Shown one piece after another: positions 7,163 through 47,112 of a DNA stretch of 64,000 nt. The translations under genes were made by a program, and so were the position numbers. The notes beneath the pieces were generated by a model. The model was not told the origin of the DNA. It ran no database searches and saw only the letters and a program-made list of their open reading frames with translations. Origin of the DNA: Anaerolineae bacterium. GTDB taxonomy: Bacteria > Chloroflexota > Anaerolineae > Aggregatilineales > Phototrophicaceae. The DNA lies in NCBI GenBank assembly GCA_022842885.1, contig JALHOR010000012.1, positions 1 to 64,000 on the forward strand, in the 5' to 3' direction. Numbering within the stretch: the first letter of the stretch is position 1; each line of letters starts with the position of its first letter.

Positions 7163-8233
7163 TTAGCGTGGCAAAATGCACAGGGTTAATTTGCCTGCTT
7201 GTGCTGCCGGGCATGACCGTGATTTGCCATCGGTGGCGCTGATAAAACTGAATCCGGTTTGCCAGAATAAATTTGCTGGCGTAGCAGTGGCAATCACATC
7301 GCAGGCTTCGGGTGCGGTGGCACTTCCCCCTGCCGTAAAATGCAAGCACTGATTCGGGGCGAGACGATTCAAATCATAAATGGCATCTACGGTGGTAGCT
7401 GCCAATAAACTCGGAATCGTGTCACTGATATTTTGCGTGTTGGTAATGGTTAAGTCTGCTAATGGCATCCACGCATTGTCAGCGCGATTGCGGATAAGCA
7501 AGCCATCGGTGTTATAGACAAAATAAAGATACTCTGTTACATCGCTATCGCTGGTGGCGACGGGCAGATACATGGCGCAGCGATACGGATTATCTTGGGT
7601 GCCGGGCGGGGCAGCATCACACACGGCGCGTTGAATGCCATTTTGCAGCACGGCAAATTTGGCAACCGCGTTGGTCGTCGTCCAAAAATGCACGCTGCGG
7701 TCATTGACCAACGCCAACCAATAAATCGATTCGCTGCATTCTGGTTGTTCTTTGGGGGCGTTGCGCTGCACTGACCATAACTGCCCACAATCATTATTTT
7801 CAAAACTGAAGAACCAGCGCGACCCGGCAAAGACCGCTGGACTGCCTTCCACCGCGCTAAAGGTGATGCTGTTCATGTCGAGTGCGCCACCTGTTTGATT
7901 GACAAATGTGATGTCGTTATCATCATAAATCAGCACAGCGTTCAAATTGCGGGGAATAGTCACATCAATCACTGTGCCGCGTTCTACGGTTTGTCCTGCC
8001 GCTACCGATTGACTGCCAATGGTATTCGGCGGCGTCACTGTGCCTTCCGTCCAGCCCACATTGGTTTCTGTGCCAAGTTTTAAGCCCGTTTTATTGAGGA
8101 TAGCCGCCGCTTGCGGCACATTTAGCCCGCTTAAATCCGGGACAGTGACGGGGTTTGATTGTGCTACGAGTGCCGAAAAACTAAAAAACAAGCAACATGC
8201 CACCATTATAAGGCGACTTAATTTTATTTGCAT
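7163..8233 (-). CDS. Secreted protein with one PASTA domain
   Basis: A 356-residue exported protein. The signal peptide (MQIKLSRLIMVACCLFFSF, cleaved near LVAQS) leads directly into a PASTA domain: TVPDLSGLNVPQAAAILNK up to VERGTVIDVTIP (about residues 29-95). PASTA modules bind peptidoglycan or beta-lactams and usually sit on PknB-type kinases, so this looks like a soluble or cell-wall-associated relative. The C-terminal two thirds, cysteine-containing (about eight Cys), is not recognised. I chose the ATG at 8233 over that at 8242 because AAAGG lies nine bases before it. It is divergent from the sigma-factor gene. Confidence 0.8.
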   Translation of the reverse strand: MQIKLSRLIMVACCLFFSFSALVAQSNPVTVPDLSGLNVPQAAAILNKTGLKLGTETNVGWTEGTVTPPNTIGSQSVAAGQTVERGTVIDVTIPRNLNAVLIYDDNDITFVNQTGGALDMNSITFSAVEGSPAVFAGSRWFFSFENNDCGQLWSVQRNAPKEQPECSESIYWLALVNDRSVHFWTTTNAVAKFAVLQNGIQRAVCDAAPPGTQDNPYRCAMYLPVATSDSDVTEYLYFVYNTDGLLIRNRADNAWMPLADLTITNTQNISDTIPSLLAATTVDAIYDLNRLAPNQCLHFTAGGSATAPEACDVIATATPANLFWQTGFSFISATDGKSRSCPAAQAGKLTLCILPR

Positions 8234-21683: not shown

Positions 21684-21725
21684 GAAGTGGTTTGCCTGAG
21701 ATGGTTGGATAAATAGCGCCAATTA

Positions 21726-21859
21726 GTAACTACTCAGGTTGCCTTTAGCCCTCACCCTAAATCCCTCTCCCGTAGGAGAGGGACTTTAACCACCACGTTG
21801 GTTCTTATCTCCCCTTCTCCTTTGGGAGAAGGGGCGGGGGATGAGGGCTGAGTAGTTAC
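21726..21859. mobile_element. MITE-like element, copy A, with 12-base terminal inverted repeats
   Basis: A 134-base element with perfect terminal inverted repeats GTAACTACTCAG (21726-21737) and CTGAGTAGTTAC (21848-21859). Flanking bases GCCAATTA (21718-21725) and GCCAATGA (21860-21867) are an 8-base direct repeat with one mismatch, consistent with a target-site duplication. The interior is a pair of imperfect palindromes and encodes nothing. Nearly identical copies lie at 26087, 31705 (inverted) and 46977. Confidence 0.8.
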
Positions 21860-26086: not shown

Positions 26087-26240
26087 GTAACTACTCAGGT
26101 TGCCTTTAGCCCTCACCCTAGCCCACCTTGCGACGGGGCTTCATCCCTCTCCCGTAGGAGAGGGACTTTAACCACCACGTTGGTTCTTATCTCCCCTTCT
26201 CCTTGGGGAGAAGGGGGCGGGGGATGAGGGCTGAAGTTAC
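26087..26240. mobile_element. MITE-like element, copy B
   Basis: A 154-base copy with left end GTAACTACTCAG and a right end CTGAAGTTAC that has lost two bases. A roughly 20-base insertion (CCCACCTTGCGACGGGGC) interrupts the left half. No target duplication is visible, so it is probably an old copy. Confidence 0.75.
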
Positions 26241-29556: not shown

Positions 29557-29831
29557 CTTGGTTTACCCTGACTGCTGCCCATATAGGTGGGAGATTGGGA
29601 TTGGGTTGTTAAGGCAAAAAACGACATCTTTAATCTATGAGAGGTTGTTTAACTTACGCTACATTATGGCACAATCCCCTGTTTTTTTTAAGTGTTATTC
29701 ATCCTGTTTCGGGTTTGTATTAAGTTTTCATGAAATTTTTGTGATGATAAGTCCTTTTCCTGCTTGACGTGACCGAACACCCGTGCTACGCTACATTACA
29801 ATGGTTGGAAATTTGTTCAAAGAGCATTGTT

Positions 29832-31097
29832 GTGACGCTGGAATTTAACCGAGTTGTAGAGCAGGTGTATAAATTGGGGGCAATGCTAACCCAATTGGAT
29901 TTTGACCTGAGCGATGCGATGACCATTGCCCGGCAGCGTTTTGAAGACTGTTCGGATTTGGCGGCGGTGTGGGAACGGATTGAATGGGTACGGTCTTCGG
30001 AAATTAGTGGCTATCGTGGTGCTGCTCCGATAGATTTGCCCAATGCCGAACCGATTAATGCCATTATCCCCGAACCCCCTTGTCCCCCATATGCCACCCT
30101 GATTGCTGCTGATGGCAGCCAAGTTTATCCCGATGAGCAAGCCCCGGTGCATTATTACCTCATCAATATTGGGCTATTCATTTTTCATCATGGGATAGAG
30201 CGCACACCAGAGCAGTTTACGCTGCCGTATTTGAAATATCACAAGAGCGATGTGCATGACCGTTATGGGCGCGTCATTCGTAACCGCACGGTAGATGACC
30301 GCCGCACCGTTGAAGAAATGCGCCATCTGGCAAATGCCGCTTGGGAACGCCGCACTCCTGATACGCCGCTGGTGACGATTTATGATAATCGGCTGATGTT
30401 TTTACCCGGCAATGATGCCCACGATAGCGACCAACTGCTCAAAGATTACATTGCGGCGCTGGTGCATCTGCAAGATGCCAATGCCATTTTGGGCGGGTAT
30501 ATTGATAATCCGCATCGCAGCAAACGCTTCATGCAATTGTTGTTTTTGATGGGTGTGGAGACAGAAGAAGAACTCAAACGTCGCCAACCGCAAATTACCA
30601 ATGCGGGCGAACTGGAAGGACTGCGTGATGAGCAGTTCTTTAACTTGATTCTCAACAACGGGGAACGCTCGGCGATTATGGTGCAAAATTCGCCGCAGAA
30701 CAAAGCCTTCCGTGACCGTGGCGTAAATTACGAAATCGCCTTCTTTTACCTCAAGGTTTACAACCAATATCAATCGCGGGTGGTACGCGTGGATTTGCCG
30801 GTGTGGGTTGCCCGCGATACCCAAAAAGTAGCGGCGCTTCATGCTTTATTGGTGTACCAATGCAAATTACAGGGGCGCAATCCGTATCCGTATGTGATTA
30901 CCCGCGCTGATGAACTGGCATGGATTGGCACGAAAGACCGCGCCAAACTGGAAGAACTGATTAAAGTGCAGGTGCGGCGCGTGCGCGAAGAACTGACGGG
31001 CAGCACGTTAAGCGCCAAATCACGCGGCAAAGAATTGGCGCGGAGTACCAAACGCTATCATGATATGTGGGGCGAGGACATCATAGATGACAAATAA
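29832..31097 (+). CDS. nurA: NurA-domain nuclease
   Basis: Probable 5'-3' nuclease of the NurA family, which partners the HerA helicase in DNA end processing; 421 residues from the GTG at 29832. The first catalytic acidic motif is IAADGSQVYPD (Asp at about residue 94), and a second, VTIYDNRLMFLPG, follows at about 182-194. The C-terminal half carries the AIMVQNSPQNKAFRD and ITRADELAWIG segments. The start is uncertain: no Shine-Dalgarno sequence is seen at the GTG, an upstream GTG (29769) or the internal ATG (29883). It overlaps the HAS-barrel gene by 11 bases, and herA lies 2.6 kb downstream. Confidence 0.85.
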   Translation: MTLEFNRVVEQVYKLGAMLTQLDFDLSDAMTIARQRFEDCSDLAAVWERIEWVRSSEISGYRGAAPIDLPNAEPINAIIPEPPCPPYATLIAADGSQVYPDEQAPVHYYLINIGLFIFHHGIERTPEQFTLPYLKYHKSDVHDRYGRVIRNRTVDDRRTVEEMRHLANAAWERRTPDTPLVTIYDNRLMFLPGNDAHDSDQLLKDYIAALVHLQDANAILGGYIDNPHRSKRFMQLLFLMGVETEEELKRRQPQITNAGELEGLRDEQFFNLILNNGERSAIMVQNSPQNKAFRDRGVNYEIAFFYLKVYNQYQSRVVRVDLPVWVARDTQKVAALHALLVYQCKLQGRNPYPYVITRADELAWIGTKDRAKLEELIKVQVRRVREELTGSTLSAKSRGKELARSTKRYHDMWGEDIIDDK

Positions 31098-31704
31098 CGG
31101 TACGAACAATGGGATTGTGGGGCGGGTGCTGCGTGCCAGCACGCGCGGCTTTGATTGTGGCGCACACAGCCGCAATATTGGCGAAAATCATGATTTTGGT
31201 GCCTTTGTGAAAGCGCCCATTGCCAATAATGATTCGATTGATGCGATTGGGCTAATTTACAAAGTCGAAATCAAAGACGATCAATTGATTGCTGAATTGG
31301 TCTTGGGGGATGCTGTGCCAGAAACGATTCTGCGTGACCAGCGCGAAAATCGTATGATTCCGGTCGAAGTCAAAGTGTTGAATGTCGGCTTCATCACCAA
31401 TGGGCAGATTGTTCATAGTTTGCCGCCGCGTCCACCGATGAGTCTTTCCGATGTGGTGTTGTGTAGTCAGGATGAAGTGTATAACTTTACGCTGCGCCAC
31501 GATTTTTTCCGGTTGATTTTGGGCGCTTCGGAAGTGCCTTCGGATGATTTGGTGGCGGCGACGATTCGCTATGCATCTAATGTCTACAATGGCAACGAAG
31601 AGATGCGGCGGGCATTCTTGGTCTCGTGTGGGCGGCAGTTAGCACGCGATTTATCCAACGATTTAAAACGCCTTGCGTATATTTTGACGTTGATTAAACC
31701 ATGA
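31087..31704 (+). CDS. HAS-barrel-like protein of the NurA-HerA locus
   Basis: A 205-residue protein whose N-terminal half (GIVGRVLRASTRGFDCGA, FGAFVKAPIANNDSIDAIGL) looks like the small beta-barrel (HAS-barrel) found at the front of HerA and ATP-synthase-type ATPases. The C-terminal half is helical (MRRAFLVSCGRQLARDLSND). It overlaps nurA by 11 bases, so translation is coupled. It may be an accessory subunit that docks on the HerA hexamer; that is inference. A MITE-like element starts directly at its stop codon. Confidence 0.7.
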   Translation: MTNNGTNNGIVGRVLRASTRGFDCGAHSRNIGENHDFGAFVKAPIANNDSIDAIGLIYKVEIKDDQLIAELVLGDAVPETILRDQRENRMIPVEVKVLNVGFITNGQIVHSLPPRPPMSLSDVVLCSQDEVYNFTLRHDFFRLILGASEVPSDDLVAATIRYASNVYNGNEEMRRAFLVSCGRQLARDLSNDLKRLAYILTLIKP

Positions 31705-31874
31705 GATAACTCATCAGCCCTCATCCCGCGACCCTTCTTCACAAAGTAACCTCACCCCCCAACCCCCTCTCCAAACACGGAGAGGGGGAGATAAGACCCA
31801 ATGTGGGGGTGAAAGTCCCTCTCTCGAAGGAGAGAGATTTAGGGTGAGGGCAGAAATACAACCTGAGTAGTTAC
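31705..31874. mobile_element. MITE-like element, copy C (inverted)
   Basis: A 170-base copy in the opposite orientation to copies A, B and D. The right end CCTGAGTAGTTAC is intact; the left end reads ATAACTCATCAG with several changes. It begins immediately after the stop of the HAS-barrel gene. No target duplication was found. Confidence 0.7.
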
Positions 31875-31932
31875 AAAGGTGATTAGTTAATTTCATATAG
31901 GCAATCATCAAACCGCAAAAGGAGTAAATGCC

Positions 31933-32253
31933 ATGCCCCAATATCTCTATCGCATTCAGCCAGTGCGCCCGGCAATGTTGACCGAAGGACCCACGCCTGA
32001 AGAAGCCCAGCGCGTCAGCGAACATTTTGCTTATTTAAAAGACCTGACCGAAAAAGGCATTGTTCTCTTGGCAGGGCGCACCACCAATACAGATTACAGC
32101 AGTTTTGGCATTGCCATTTTTCTGGCAGAGTCCGACGACGCAATGCGCGAACTGGCAGCGAATGACCCCGCAGTAAAAAATCGCGTGATGCGGGCAGAAT
32201 GGTATCCGTATCGGATTGCGCTGATTTCCAAATCCATACTAGAATCATCTTAA
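31933..32253 (+). CDS. YCII-related domain protein
   Basis: A 106-residue small alpha/beta protein of the YciI-like superfamily. The sequence HFAYLKDLTEKGIVLLAGRT is the characteristic core, and a conserved His (about residue 33) begins it. Members are dimeric ferredoxin-like proteins of varied or unknown function, some with dehydrochlorinase-like activity. AGGAG nine bases before the ATG is a strong site. It sits between the nurA-side genes and the zinc-ribbon array and may be only a bystander. Confidence 0.85.
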   Translation: MPQYLYRIQPVRPAMLTEGPTPEEAQRVSEHFAYLKDLTEKGIVLLAGRTTNTDYSSFGIAIFLAESDDAMRELAANDPAVKNRVMRAEWYPYRIALISKSILESS

Positions 32254-32302
32254 AGAGACATTGCATTCAGCAGTGGGTTCATAGTGGGAATGGGAAAATT
32301 TC

Positions 32303-32623
32303 ATGAAAAATGGCATTTGTCGTAATTGTCGCAAGCAAAGCGTTTTCCGCAAAAAAGCGGACCAAGATTACACCATCCCCATTCGTTCTTTTTCAGTGGC
32401 GGCGGTGTATCATTTTGTGTGCGCCAATTGTGGTTATATCGAAAATTATATTTTGGATGATGGCAAGCTGCGCCAGATTGCCAACAATTGGGAATATGTG
32501 CTGCCCTATGATGAACCTTCGCCTTATGAGGATGATGAAGGGAGTGCTTGGACACCCCCACCACCGGAACCAGACGACGTGCGCCGCGAAGATGAAACCG
32601 ATGAGCATGAGCAAATTCCGTGA
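32303..32623 (+). CDS. Double-CxxC zinc-ribbon protein, paralogue 1
   Basis: A 106-residue protein with C6-x2-C9 and C40-x2-C43, suggesting one zinc ribbon. The second knuckle sits in FVCANCGYIENYIL. It is the first of four tandem paralogues (next at 32836, 33065 and 33410), all beginning M-[KR]-N-G-[IV]-C or close to it and sharing C-x2-C-G-Y-x-E-x-Y-I. This copy has a long acidic, Pro-rich tail (residues 68-106). GGGAA precedes the ATG at suitable spacing. Function not known; a nucleic-acid or protein-binding role is plausible. Confidence 0.75.
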   Translation: MKNGICRNCRKQSVFRKKADQDYTIPIRSFSVAAVYHFVCANCGYIENYILDDGKLRQIANNWEYVLPYDEPSPYEDDEGSAWTPPPPEPDDVRREDETDEHEQIP

Positions 32624-32700
32624 AATAAGACAGAGGCTCGGCAATACCAATGCTTGAAAACTAAGAGCCTGTTTCGTGTTTGTAATTTACGTTTATTTTT

Positions 32701-32763
32701 AACCACAGAGCGCACCGAGAAATGCTGAAAAACCTTCGTGTTCTTTGTGTCTTCGTGGTTCAA
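32701..32763. repeat. Dispersed repeat with complementary AACCAC/GTGGTT ends
   Basis: AACCACAGAGCGCACCGAGA at one end and CTTTGTGTCTTCGTGGTT at the other, imperfectly complementary. It is the most complete copy of this family in the window and lies in the 212-base gap between zinc-ribbon paralogues 1 and 2. Confidence 0.55.
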
Positions 32764-32835
32764 AAATAATTTTTATAATGCACTATTGCATTTGCAAACA
32801 TGCTCTAATCACTTAACCACTGAAAGCTATTTTTC

Positions 32836-33078
32836 ATGCGAAATGGCATTTGTACCAAATGTGGGCGGGCGACGGTCTATTCTGGGCGTGATATGCCTGC
32901 CAAAGCCAGCACGGGTAACACCGTTCCCATTGATTTTCAGCACAGTGCCGCGCTGGATAATTATGTGTGTATTGGCTGTGGCTACGTAGAACGGTACATC
33001 AGCGACCCGCAAGCGTTAGAGCGCATCGGCAAACAATGGCGCGATGCCACGCGCAAACGTAAAAATGACGCCCGATAA
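32836..33078 (+). CDS. Double-CxxC zinc-ribbon protein, paralogue 2
   Basis: An 80-residue protein with C6-x2-C9 and C45-x2-C48. It starts MRNGICTKCGRATVYSG and has the shared core VPIDFQHSAALDNYVC. The C-terminus is basic (RDATRKRKNDAR), unlike the acidic tail of paralogue 1 and much like that of paralogue 4. Its 3' end overlaps the start of paralogue 3 by 14 bases. Confidence 0.75.
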   Translation: MRNGICTKCGRATVYSGRDMPAKASTGNTVPIDFQHSAALDNYVCIGCGYVERYISDPQALERIGKQWRDATRKRKNDAR

Positions 33079-33379
33079 TGATAATCTGCCCAGTTTGAAA
33101 GAGGGGGTTTGCCCGGTTTGCACCTCCACCAACATCAAATCCGGCACACATATCACCGAAAAAGAGGGGTTATTGGGCAGTAACCGCTTGCCCATCAATG
33201 CGGTTTTCGCCGCCCCGCTGGATAATTTTGTATGCCTCGACTGTGGCTATTTGGAGAGTTATATCCTAGATAGGGCAATTCTGAACCGCATTGAACGCGA
33301 GTGGCAAAAAGTGGCAGTGGTGAATACGGATAATGTGACCACCGAGAACACTGAGCACACTGAGAACGAAAAACTGTAA
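33065..33379 (+). CDS. Double-CxxC zinc-ribbon protein, paralogue 3
   Basis: A 104-residue protein with C16-x2-C19 and C57-x2-C60 and the core LPINAVFAAPLDNFVCLDCG. The N-terminus is about ten residues longer than in the other copies. The last dozen residues, VTTENTEHTENEKL, are encoded by a dispersed DNA repeat (33337-33367), so the repeat seems to have replaced or extended the native C-terminus. The ATG at 33065 overlaps paralogue 2; an upstream start at 33044 is less likely. Confidence 0.75.
   Translation: MTPDNDNLPSLKEGVCPVCTSTNIKSGTHITEKEGLLGSNRLPINAVFAAPLDNFVCLDCGYLESYILDRAILNRIEREWQKVAVVNTDNVTTENTEHTENEKL
33337..33367. repeat. Dispersed repeat inside the 3' end of zinc-ribbon gene 3
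   Basis: GACCACCGAGAACACTGAGC ACACTGAGAAC is a member of the AACCAC...GAGAACAC family and lies within the reading frame. Confidence 0.5.
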
Positions 33380-33409
33380 TATCGAAATACAATAGGAGCG
33401 TAAAAAATT

Positions 33410-33679
33410 ATGGCAATGCGTAATGGAGTATGCCCGATTTGTAACTCACCTGAAGTTTATGTAGGGACTACGCGCATGGCGAGTATACGCGCAGGTTCTT
33501 ATGGTGCAAACTCAATTCCTGTCAATTGGGCGATAACTGCCCCGCTGGAAAATTTTGTGTGTGCTGATTGCGGTTATGTGGAAAGTTATATTTTGGAACC
33601 CGAAAAACTTGAAAAAATCCGTGAACTGTGGGATCGCGCGGATGGTGAGCCGAACCACAAGCGCAAAAATGATGAATGA
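33410..33679 (+). CDS. Double-CxxC zinc-ribbon protein, paralogue 4
   Basis: An 89-residue protein with C8-x2-C11 and C51-x2-C54. The core IPVNWAITAPLENFVCADCG matches paralogue 3 most closely, and the basic end (PNHKRKNDE) matches paralogue 2. AGGAG eleven bases before the ATG at 33410 supports this start; the ATG at 33416 (MRNG) would match the other copies. herA begins 60 bases downstream. Confidence 0.75.
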   Translation: MAMRNGVCPICNSPEVYVGTTRMASIRAGSYGANSIPVNWAITAPLENFVCADCGYVESYILEPEKLEKIRELWDRADGEPNHKRKNDE

Positions 33680-33739
33680 TAAAGTATCTAAAATAATTGA
33701 GACAAAAGTTTAAGCTATGTTACATATTAAGGAAAAAGA

Positions 33740-35428
33740 ATGACCCACAACTCTGACCCCAATAATCTTGATAACTGGTTTGGACCTGAAGCGATTTTTG
33801 GCGTGAATGATGCCGACCATCCCAACAGCGTGAAGCGCCTCGGTGTGGTGGTGGGTGGCAGCCTCAGCAAAGGCATGTCGGTCAAACTCGACCCAATGGT
33901 CAGTGTCGAAGATTTGGCAGTGGGGCGGTATGTGGTGGTGCATGGCGATAACAAACGCTTTTTTTGTATGGTCAATGATATTAATCTAAACAGTACCAAC
34001 CCCGCGATTCAGAGTGACCCGCCGGACATCAGCGACCCGTTTTTAAAAGCCATTTATATGAGTACCGTTGCCTATAGCATCATTAATGTCACGCCGATGC
34101 TGATGATTGATGCTGAAAAAGGGCCCTTGCCTGTCAAAACGATTCCGGGGCATTTTACGTTGGCGTATACTGCCACTGAGGATGATGTGAACAGCGTTTT
34201 CGGCACAGAAGGCTTGACTAATTTTAACGTAGGCTCACCGCTGGAATTAGAGCATACCAACGTCAATCTGAATCTCAAACGCTTGGTAGAACGCTCGATT
34301 GGCGTCTTCGGCAAAAGCGGCACCGGCAAAAGTTTTCTCACCCGCGTGTTGATGGCAGGCATCATCAAAAGTGGCATTGGCGTCAGCCTGATTTTTGATA
34401 TGCACAACGATTACGGTTGGGAAATCGTCAGCGAAAATGGCAGCAGCGTCAAAGGCTTAAAACAACTTTTTGGTGAACGAGTTTCCATTTTGACACTGGA
34501 TGGCGAATCATCACGGCGGCGCAATGCGCGTTTTGATTTTGAAATCAAGCTCGGTTATGACGAAATTGAACCGGAAGACATCGCCAATCTGAAAGCCACC
34601 ATGGGCTTATCCGATACGATGATTGACGCAGCGTTTGGCTTACGGAAAATTTGGGGCAAGGATTGGGTGCGCCAGTTGATTAAAGGCAGTGCCGAAGATT
34701 TGGAATATATCAGCGAAAATACCAACATCGGCGGCGGCACATTGGCGGCGTTGCAGCGGCGCTTAGAACGGTTTGAACGCTGGCACTTTTTGGTCGAAGA
34801 AAATCCCGGTGATAGTGTGCAGCAAATTATCGAACTGCTGGTGAATCAGCAAAAAAGTGTCGTGCTGGAATTTGGGCGTTATGGCAATCAGTTAGAAGCC
34901 TATATGCTGGTGGCGAACTATATCACGCGCCGCATTCACCATCGCTATGTTGAACTCATCGAAAAATCGTTGGGCGATGGCACTATGGCACCGCCGCAAC
35001 TGCTCATCACGATTGAAGAAGCGCATAAATTTTTAGAGCCACAGGTAGCGCGGCAAACGACGTTTGGCATCATCGCCCGCGAAATGCGAAAATACAACGT
35101 GACGCTGCTCATCGTAGACCAGCGTCCTAGCGCCATAGACGAAGAAGTCATGAGCCAAATTGGCACGCGCGTCACGGCGTTACTCGATAATGAGCGCGAT
35201 ATTCATGCCGTATTGAATGGCATTAGCGGGGCAGGGGGCTTGCGCGAAGTGTTGGCACGCCTAGAAACCAAGCAGCAAGCGATTATCATGGGTCATGCTG
35301 TGCCGATGCCAGTGGTCATCAAACCGCGCAATTATGACACCGCATTTTACGACGCCATCACTGGCACGCCGGTAGATACCACCAGCGCCCGCAAAGCCCT
35401 GGGTAGCGGCGGCAAACGGCGGGTGTAA
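33740..35428 (+). CDS. herA: HerA-family hexameric ATPase (DUF87)
   Basis: A 562-residue FtsK/HerA-type ATPase. The N-terminal HAS barrel covers about residues 30-170; Walker A GKSGTGKS is at 191-198, Walker B LLITIEEAH near 424-432, and LLIVDQRPSAIDEEVMSQIG is the conserved sensor/arginine region. HerA translocates DNA and works with NurA in end resection; some standalone HerA proteins act in phage defence. AAGGA seven bases before the ATG. It is the last gene of the nurA-to-herA block. Confidence 0.92.
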   Translation: MTHNSDPNNLDNWFGPEAIFGVNDADHPNSVKRLGVVVGGSLSKGMSVKLDPMVSVEDLAVGRYVVVHGDNKRFFCMVNDINLNSTNPAIQSDPPDISDPFLKAIYMSTVAYSIINVTPMLMIDAEKGPLPVKTIPGHFTLAYTATEDDVNSVFGTEGLTNFNVGSPLELEHTNVNLNLKRLVERSIGVFGKSGTGKSFLTRVLMAGIIKSGIGVSLIFDMHNDYGWEIVSENGSSVKGLKQLFGERVSILTLDGESSRRRNARFDFEIKLGYDEIEPEDIANLKATMGLSDTMIDAAFGLRKIWGKDWVRQLIKGSAEDLEYISENTNIGGGTLAALQRRLERFERWHFLVEENPGDSVQQIIELLVNQQKSVVLEFGRYGNQLEAYMLVANYITRRIHHRYVELIEKSLGDGTMAPPQLLITIEEAHKFLEPQVARQTTFGIIAREMRKYNVTLLIVDQRPSAIDEEVMSQIGTRVTALLDNERDIHAVLNGISGAGGLREVLARLETKQQAIIMGHAVPMPVVIKPRNYDTAFYDAITGTPVDTTSARKALGSGGKRRV

Positions 35429-46965: not shown

Positions 46966-46976
46966 AATCAAAATTA

Positions 46977-47112
46977 GTAACTACTCAGGTTATTTTTAGC
47001 CCTCACCCTAAATCCCTCTCCCACAGGAGAGGGACTTTAACTCCCCACGTTGGGGAGTATCTCCCCTTCTCCTTTGGGAGAAGGGGCAGGGGGATGAGGG
47101 CTGAGTCGTTAC
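46977..47112. mobile_element. MITE-like element, copy D, with perfect 8-base target duplication
   Basis: A 136-base element with ends GTAACTACTCAG (46977-46988) and CTGAGTCGTTAC (47101-47112, one mismatch). It is flanked by an exact direct repeat CAAAATTA at 46969-46976 and 47113-47120. This is the best evidence that the family moved by transposition. It lies between two convergent genes. Confidence 0.85.

Follow-up and report, generated by a model that had tools for sequence, protein, structure and literature searches.

A conserved nurA–X–herA gene unit in Chloroflexota pairs NurA and HerA with a predicted stand-alone HAS-barrel protein

We analysed a 64,000-nucleotide (nt) stretch of DNA from an Anaerolineae bacterium of the family Phototrophicaceae (contig JALHOR010000012.1, assembly GCA_022842885.1; G000:C12 in our survey, from a 6.0-Mb assembly), hereafter the window, and found that its nurA and herA genes belong to a conserved unit, nurA–X–herA, in which the middle gene, here called X, encodes a predicted HAS-barrel protein. 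The conserved unit does not include the four small zinc-ribbon genes that lie between X and herA in the window. Our preferred reading, to which we assign a probability of roughly 0.6, is that the locus encodes a Chloroflexota-type NurA–HerA end-processing machine with a three-gene core, nurA–X–herA, and that the ribbons and an accompanying YCII-domain gene are lineage cargo. The NurA–HerA pair itself is already known. Neither a stand-alone HAS-barrel partner nor a form of the locus with ribbons or TIR genes was found in a search of the open literature that left most subscription papers outside its reach, so that an earlier mention is possible; this agrees with an initial annotation of the window from its letters alone (the sequence-only reading), which knew of no described system of this composition.

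The conserved unit emerges from a survey with each protein as a query against one set of 150 class genomes. HerA was detected in 107 genomes and NurA and X in 95 each, with all three together in 84. In 71 of the 72 genomes where NurA and X share a contig, NurA comes first and the two lie on one strand no more than 3 kb apart; for X and HerA, 51 of 53 same-contig pairs are neighbours. Of the 43 genomes with nurA and herA on one contig, 38 have them on one strand at most 3 kb apart; in 49 further genomes the two genes lie on separate contigs. X stays beside either partner when nurA and herA separate: nurA–X is kept without herA in G083, G055 and G107, and X–herA is kept without nurA in G146, whose nurA lies elsewhere in the genome. 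Among 80 named loci fetched with a narrower X alignment set, 53 carry nurA–X–herA and most others end at a contig edge or have no herA nearby; the spacing at gene junctions is often −3 to +3 nt, and many of the 53 show 4-nt overlaps. All but one of these loci are Chloroflexota records, and the lone exception, a 'Phycisphaerales' bin sharing a sample with another match, is probably mis-binned. Phylum-wide, X is present in 115 of 301 genomes. Twenty X loci outside the class have, by our own reading, NurA nearby in 16 cases and HerA nearby in 11, and several from families outside the class show a 4-nt X–herA overlap.

By structure prediction, X is a HAS barrel without the ATPase motor, followed by a helical bundle. 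The protein has no match above cut-off in Pfam or NCBIfam, no meaningful match in PADLOC or PHROGs and none in a sequence search of the PDB; hhalign found no match between X and NurA. An AlphaFold2 model of X made with 61 relatives (predicted local distance difference test (pLDDT) 88.8, predicted template modelling score (pTM) 0.83) retrieved HerA-family chains as all of its top 50 Foldseek matches in the PDB, the first being a HerA–NurA complex. Structural alignment with VIA-align gave a Z of 13.4 to a HerA HAS domain and about 10 to ATP-synthase barrels, and comparison with residues 1–121 of another HerA chain, 9c1m_M, gave a Z of 13.2 with a root-mean-square deviation of 2.0 over 103 residues. 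The predicted fold thus resembles both the HAS barrel of HerA (PF09378) and the N-terminal barrel of ATP-synthase alpha and beta subunits, and because the HerA domains match best we take X to be a motorless HAS barrel. Unlike either relative, X has no ATPase domain and is predicted to carry a C-terminal helical bundle instead. Two segments of X, LPPxPP and DQRxNRxxP, are conserved.

In Deinococcus radiodurans the HerA HAS ring mediates NurA binding (PMC9960219), and because that ring contacts NurA, an interface role is the simplest proposal for X; most likely, X joins HerA and NurA as a third subunit where the two meet. HerA would act as a hexameric pump for double-stranded DNA whose N-terminal HAS ring docks a NurA dimer; X would bind the HAS-ring/NurA interface as an adaptor or collar and could couple DNA pumping to cutting. 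The window NurA and HerA have the domains and motifs of a NurA–HerA end-processing pair: D94, G95 and S96 (the DGS motif) and D266 of NurA are kept across 65 relatives, and in HerA the Walker A and Walker B motifs, which start at residues 191 and 425, are intact. Resection of broken DNA ends is probably the main job of the pair. Archaeal and Deinococcus systems have the same NurA nuclease, HAS-barrel HerA translocase, gene linkage and docking of NurA on the HAS ring (PMC9960219), but consist of two kinds of subunit, whereas the window encodes a separate HAS-barrel protein between them.

Several observations weigh against this reading. The Pfam HAS-barrel profile PF09378 does not match the window X and gives only weak matches to 6 of 16 relatives, the best with an E of 0.0033, and hhalign aligns X with HerA over only 28 columns at low probability. 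NurA and HerA occur with X undetected in eight class genomes, and X and HerA with NurA undetected in eight; some of these cases may reflect assembly gaps or divergence. In Thermus, nurA overlaps herA (hepA) directly with no X between them (PMC5448004), so X is not required everywhere for a working NurA–HerA. Direct contact of X with HerA or NurA is a proposal, the structure predictions having covered single chains. Alternatively, X might work by itself and never enter the HerA ring, perhaps inhibiting NurA or serving as an assembly chaperone. Many genomes have nurA–X without a nearby herA, which suggests that X is linked more tightly to nurA, but the 4-nt X–herA overlap in several families and the retention of X with herA in G146 make this explanation unlikely.

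The distribution of the unit bears on whether it serves repair or defence. Of 12 genera with several genomes, 8 have HerA in all or in none and the other 4 depart from this by one genome each; the HerA module is mostly single-copy, and searches of plasmids and phages returned no X copies. Phylum-wide, genus-uniform presence together with absence from plasmids and phages makes a core role in repair likelier than a mobile defence system. The bacterial role of NurA–HerA has been called controversial in work on Deinococcus (PMC9960219).

Open reading frames (ORFs) and domain searches place every gene of the window locus on the forward strand, in the order nurA, X, YCII gene, four zinc ribbons and herA. 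The sequence-only reading had proposed this layout, with a HAS-barrel-like gene coupled to nurA and four double-CxxC paralogues, and each part of it is borne out:

29832–31097, + strand: nurA, nuclease subunit (PF09376, E 6e-14; alternative GTG start at 29769)
31087–31704, + strand: X, predicted stand-alone HAS-barrel protein with C-terminal helical bundle, assigned from predicted fold and gene linkage
31706–31932, no strand: dispersed intergenic repeat in the X–YCII gap, no gene (45 matches in its own genome)
31933–32253, + strand: YCII-domain gene (PF03795, E 5.9e-9)
32303–32623, + strand: zinc ribbon 1, double-CxxC ORF; its ortholog is the single ribbon of genome G478
32836–33078, + strand: zinc ribbon 2, with a C-terminal KRKND tag; its probable ortholog is a ribbon of genome G483
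33065–33379, + strand: zinc ribbon 3, overlapping ribbon 2 (longest ORF from 33044)
33410–33679, + strand: zinc ribbon 4, double-CxxC ORF with a C-terminal KRKND tag
33740–35428, + strand: herA, HAS barrel and RecA-like DNA translocase (PF01935 (DUF87), E 1.1e-27; PF09378, E 1.1e-5)

The nurA and X reading frames overlap by 11 nt. Ribbon 3 probably starts at the ATG at 33065 and overlaps ribbon 2. The X–YCII gap measures 228 nt, and because it holds the dispersed repeat, gene spacing in the window is partly the product of repeat insertion; the same repeat occurs elsewhere in the window at 21723–21846, 26087–26229 and 46974–47099. Promoter and terminator scans gave counts close to chance.

The interval between X and herA is a variable slot whose cargo differs by genus within the family, and the earlier description of its contents as inserted accessory genes was accurate. 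In the family the X–herA gap ranges from 4 to 6252 nt with a median of 1711 (21 loci with both genes on one contig), against a median of 148 nt over 59 named loci. Among the family cargo are genes for YCII, TIR and AAA_21 proteins, ribbons and a type IIG restriction enzyme; elsewhere in the class the slot holds PDDEXK_3, nucleotidyltransferases, GIY-YIG and others, and a Y1 transposase and 23S IVP are also among X–herA gap genes. The YCII gene is family-level slot cargo, found between X and herA in G434, G440, G464, G465 and G476 and upstream of herA in G019 and G468. In G462, X and herA are separated by a type IIG (MmeI-like) restriction-modification gene (locus L187, 6569–9730). An AAA gene with a RecF/SMC-like N-terminus (AAA_21 in L176) occurs in the slot or just upstream of herA in three members of the family (L208, L228 and L176), followed in two of the three by a second small gene. 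The commonest X–herA insert in named Anaerolineae loci is a PDDEXK_3 (GxxExxY-like) gene, as in L127 at 7702–8103.

Such variety would be expected if the gap were simply tolerant of insertion and the ribbons and YCII gene were passengers of unrelated function, an explanation whose chances we put a little short of even. It gains from the unrelated genes seen from genome to genome (TIR, type IIG, AAA_21, PDDEXK_3, nucleotidyltransferase, GIY-YIG, Y1 transposase and 23S IVP) and from the dispersed repeat inside the window gap, and loses from the recurrence of the same ribbon and TIR families there across genera and on the same strand, as well as from the overlap of the G478 ribbon with herA. Under our preferred three-gene reading, the ribbons and YCII gene would have entered the X–herA gap in the window's family as lineage-specific cargo.

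The ribbons form a coherent family. All four share 16 invariant columns, including four cysteines, with 26–38% identity to ribbon 1, and C6, C9, C40 and C43 of ribbon 1 are invariant in 20 sequences; by these two invariant CxxC pairs they are zinc ribbons, with predicted metal binding. A profile of the four has exactly four matches in their own 6.0-Mb genome, all at the locus, so the set is not a chance match. Like the Zn_ribbon_13/DUF2082, TFIIB-type and Lar families, the ribbons have two CxxC knuckles in about 70–110 amino acids (aa), but they reach the curated cut-off of none of these families, the best Pfam score being 23.9 bits against a gathering score of 29 (Zn_Ribbon_TF). A structure model from the four sequences is poor (pLDDT 63).

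Across the class, a 20-sequence profile finds ribbons in 9 of 150 genomes, in none of them near nurA or herA except in the window, and no ribbon occurs in any of the 80 named X loci. On these grounds the ribbons are not core, and we ruled them out as core subunits. Within the window's family (98 genomes), 10 genomes have ribbons with 20 matches in total, of which 14 lie just upstream of herA in five genomes: the window's own and G478, G483, G484 and G487. Ribbons as a feature unique to the window genome are likewise ruled out, and the arrangement itself recurs in these four relatives. The neighbourhood comparison proposed by the sequence-only reading is thus divided, negative across the class and positive in four relatives of the window. 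Its suggestion that the HAS-barrel protein and the ribbons are accessory or specificity subunits fits X, predicted to be a stand-alone HAS barrel and linked to nurA and herA phylum-wide, and for the ribbons could apply only within a lineage. The ribbons are a recent addition, limited to close relatives.

The simplest ribbon-bearing locus is that of G478, from the same genus, in which nurA, X, a single ribbon and herA follow one another with junctions of −14, +6 and −4 nt. Ribbon 1 and the G478 ribbon share 70% aa identity with a nonsynonymous substitution rate (dN) of 0.22 and saturated synonymous sites, and ribbon 2 and the G483 ribbon are 62% identical over 68 aa. Because orthologs keep 62–70% identity despite saturated synonymous sites, the ribbons are selected genes evolving under purifying selection. 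In G483 and G484, nurA–X is followed by a double ribbon and then by a ribbon that an acidic linker joins to a DUF4096 (IS4/5-type transposase) domain; the fusion, with its long acidic linker, lies upstream of herA at L170 6902–8056 and L171 7862–9001. Between these genes and herA, G483 has a further ribbon of 89 aa and a TIR gene. In G487 (L172), two ribbons accompany herA, with nurA and X not adjacent; at 8.5 Mb this genome stands apart from its genus, where most genomes measure 3–5 Mb and the other 33 have no detected herA, so it may be a mixed bin and the ribbon–herA linkage there should be taken cautiously. In G019 the genes upstream of herA are a YCII gene and a transposase, and the two ribbons lie elsewhere. 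In a HerA tree the ribbon-bearing genomes group loosely, and a single gain is not settled.

The KRKND C-terminal tag is common to ribbons 2 (33055–33069) and 4 (33659–33673), one G487 ribbon (L172 7535–7756) and both G019 ribbons (L047 7341–7601 and 7777–8013), with differing synonymous codons. A TPR-like protein encoded elsewhere in the genome (L197) also ends in it.

These data leave it doubtful that in the window's lineage the ribbons truly serve NurA–HerA as specificity or accessory subunits, for example DNA-end sensors or HerA regulators. Their position just upstream of herA in five genomes, with 14 of 20 family matches there, the tight G478 junctions (6 nt after X and a 4-nt overlap with herA) and purifying selection on orthologs would fit such a role. 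They are nevertheless missing at herA in nearly all relatives and in the rest of the class, vary in copy number and architecture (one to four units and the DUF4096 fusion), and also occur away from herA (G019, G479 and G454). In the three-gene reading they would be selected, optional add-ons that may bind DNA or protein and stand outside the core machine.

A second recurrent cargo is a single TIR family with a common N-terminal domain and a conserved Glu, found in the X–herA slot of six relatives (L170 8446–9240, L174 3724–4521, L178, L203, L206 and L207). In a seventh relative the family lies near herA (L051 8295–8999); in OLB13 (G146/L098) its position is some 2 kb downstream of herA, on the opposite strand. 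In 588 kb of sequence, six of eight TIR profile matches fall in the slot, which makes up 6.7% of it; under uniform placement P is about 2e-6, a value uncorrected for shared ancestry that overstates the evidence because the matches share ancestry. Known HerA defence systems, Nezha (SIR2–HerA) and DUF4297–HerA, similarly place a HerA ATPase beside a partner gene, and sister genomes of the window carry a TIR gene, a possible NADase, upstream of herA. Here, however, the core is nurA and X, the window has no TIR gene, and domain and PADLOC searches found no SIR2 or DUF4297 domain among window genes.

By analogy with those systems, NurA, X and HerA could be an anti-phage defence chassis with swappable effectors or sensors such as TIR, ribbons and type IIG enzymes. 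The recurrent TIR family and the pairing of HerA ATPases with NADases in known defence (PMC11559045) are consistent with this idea, but the module occurs throughout the phylum, usually in single copy and uniformly within genera, plasmids and phages yielded no copies, most loci have no effector gene, and PADLOC HerA matches indicate the superfamily only; we regard it as improbable. Less likely still is the more specific version in which X is a dedicated HAS-ring adaptor of a three-subunit chassis into which one family's TIR, tandem ribbons and type IIG enzyme plug, making modular defence out of a DNA-repair motor. We favour a core repair role; for the window's family, a link to defence may exist through slot cargo.

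NurA–HerA is known as a two-part machine, and a phylum-wide third HAS-barrel subunit, if true, would change the view of how the pump is coupled to the nuclease. The variable slot beside it shows gain and loss of HerA-linked accessory genes, and so bears on how repair motors could be recruited into defence.

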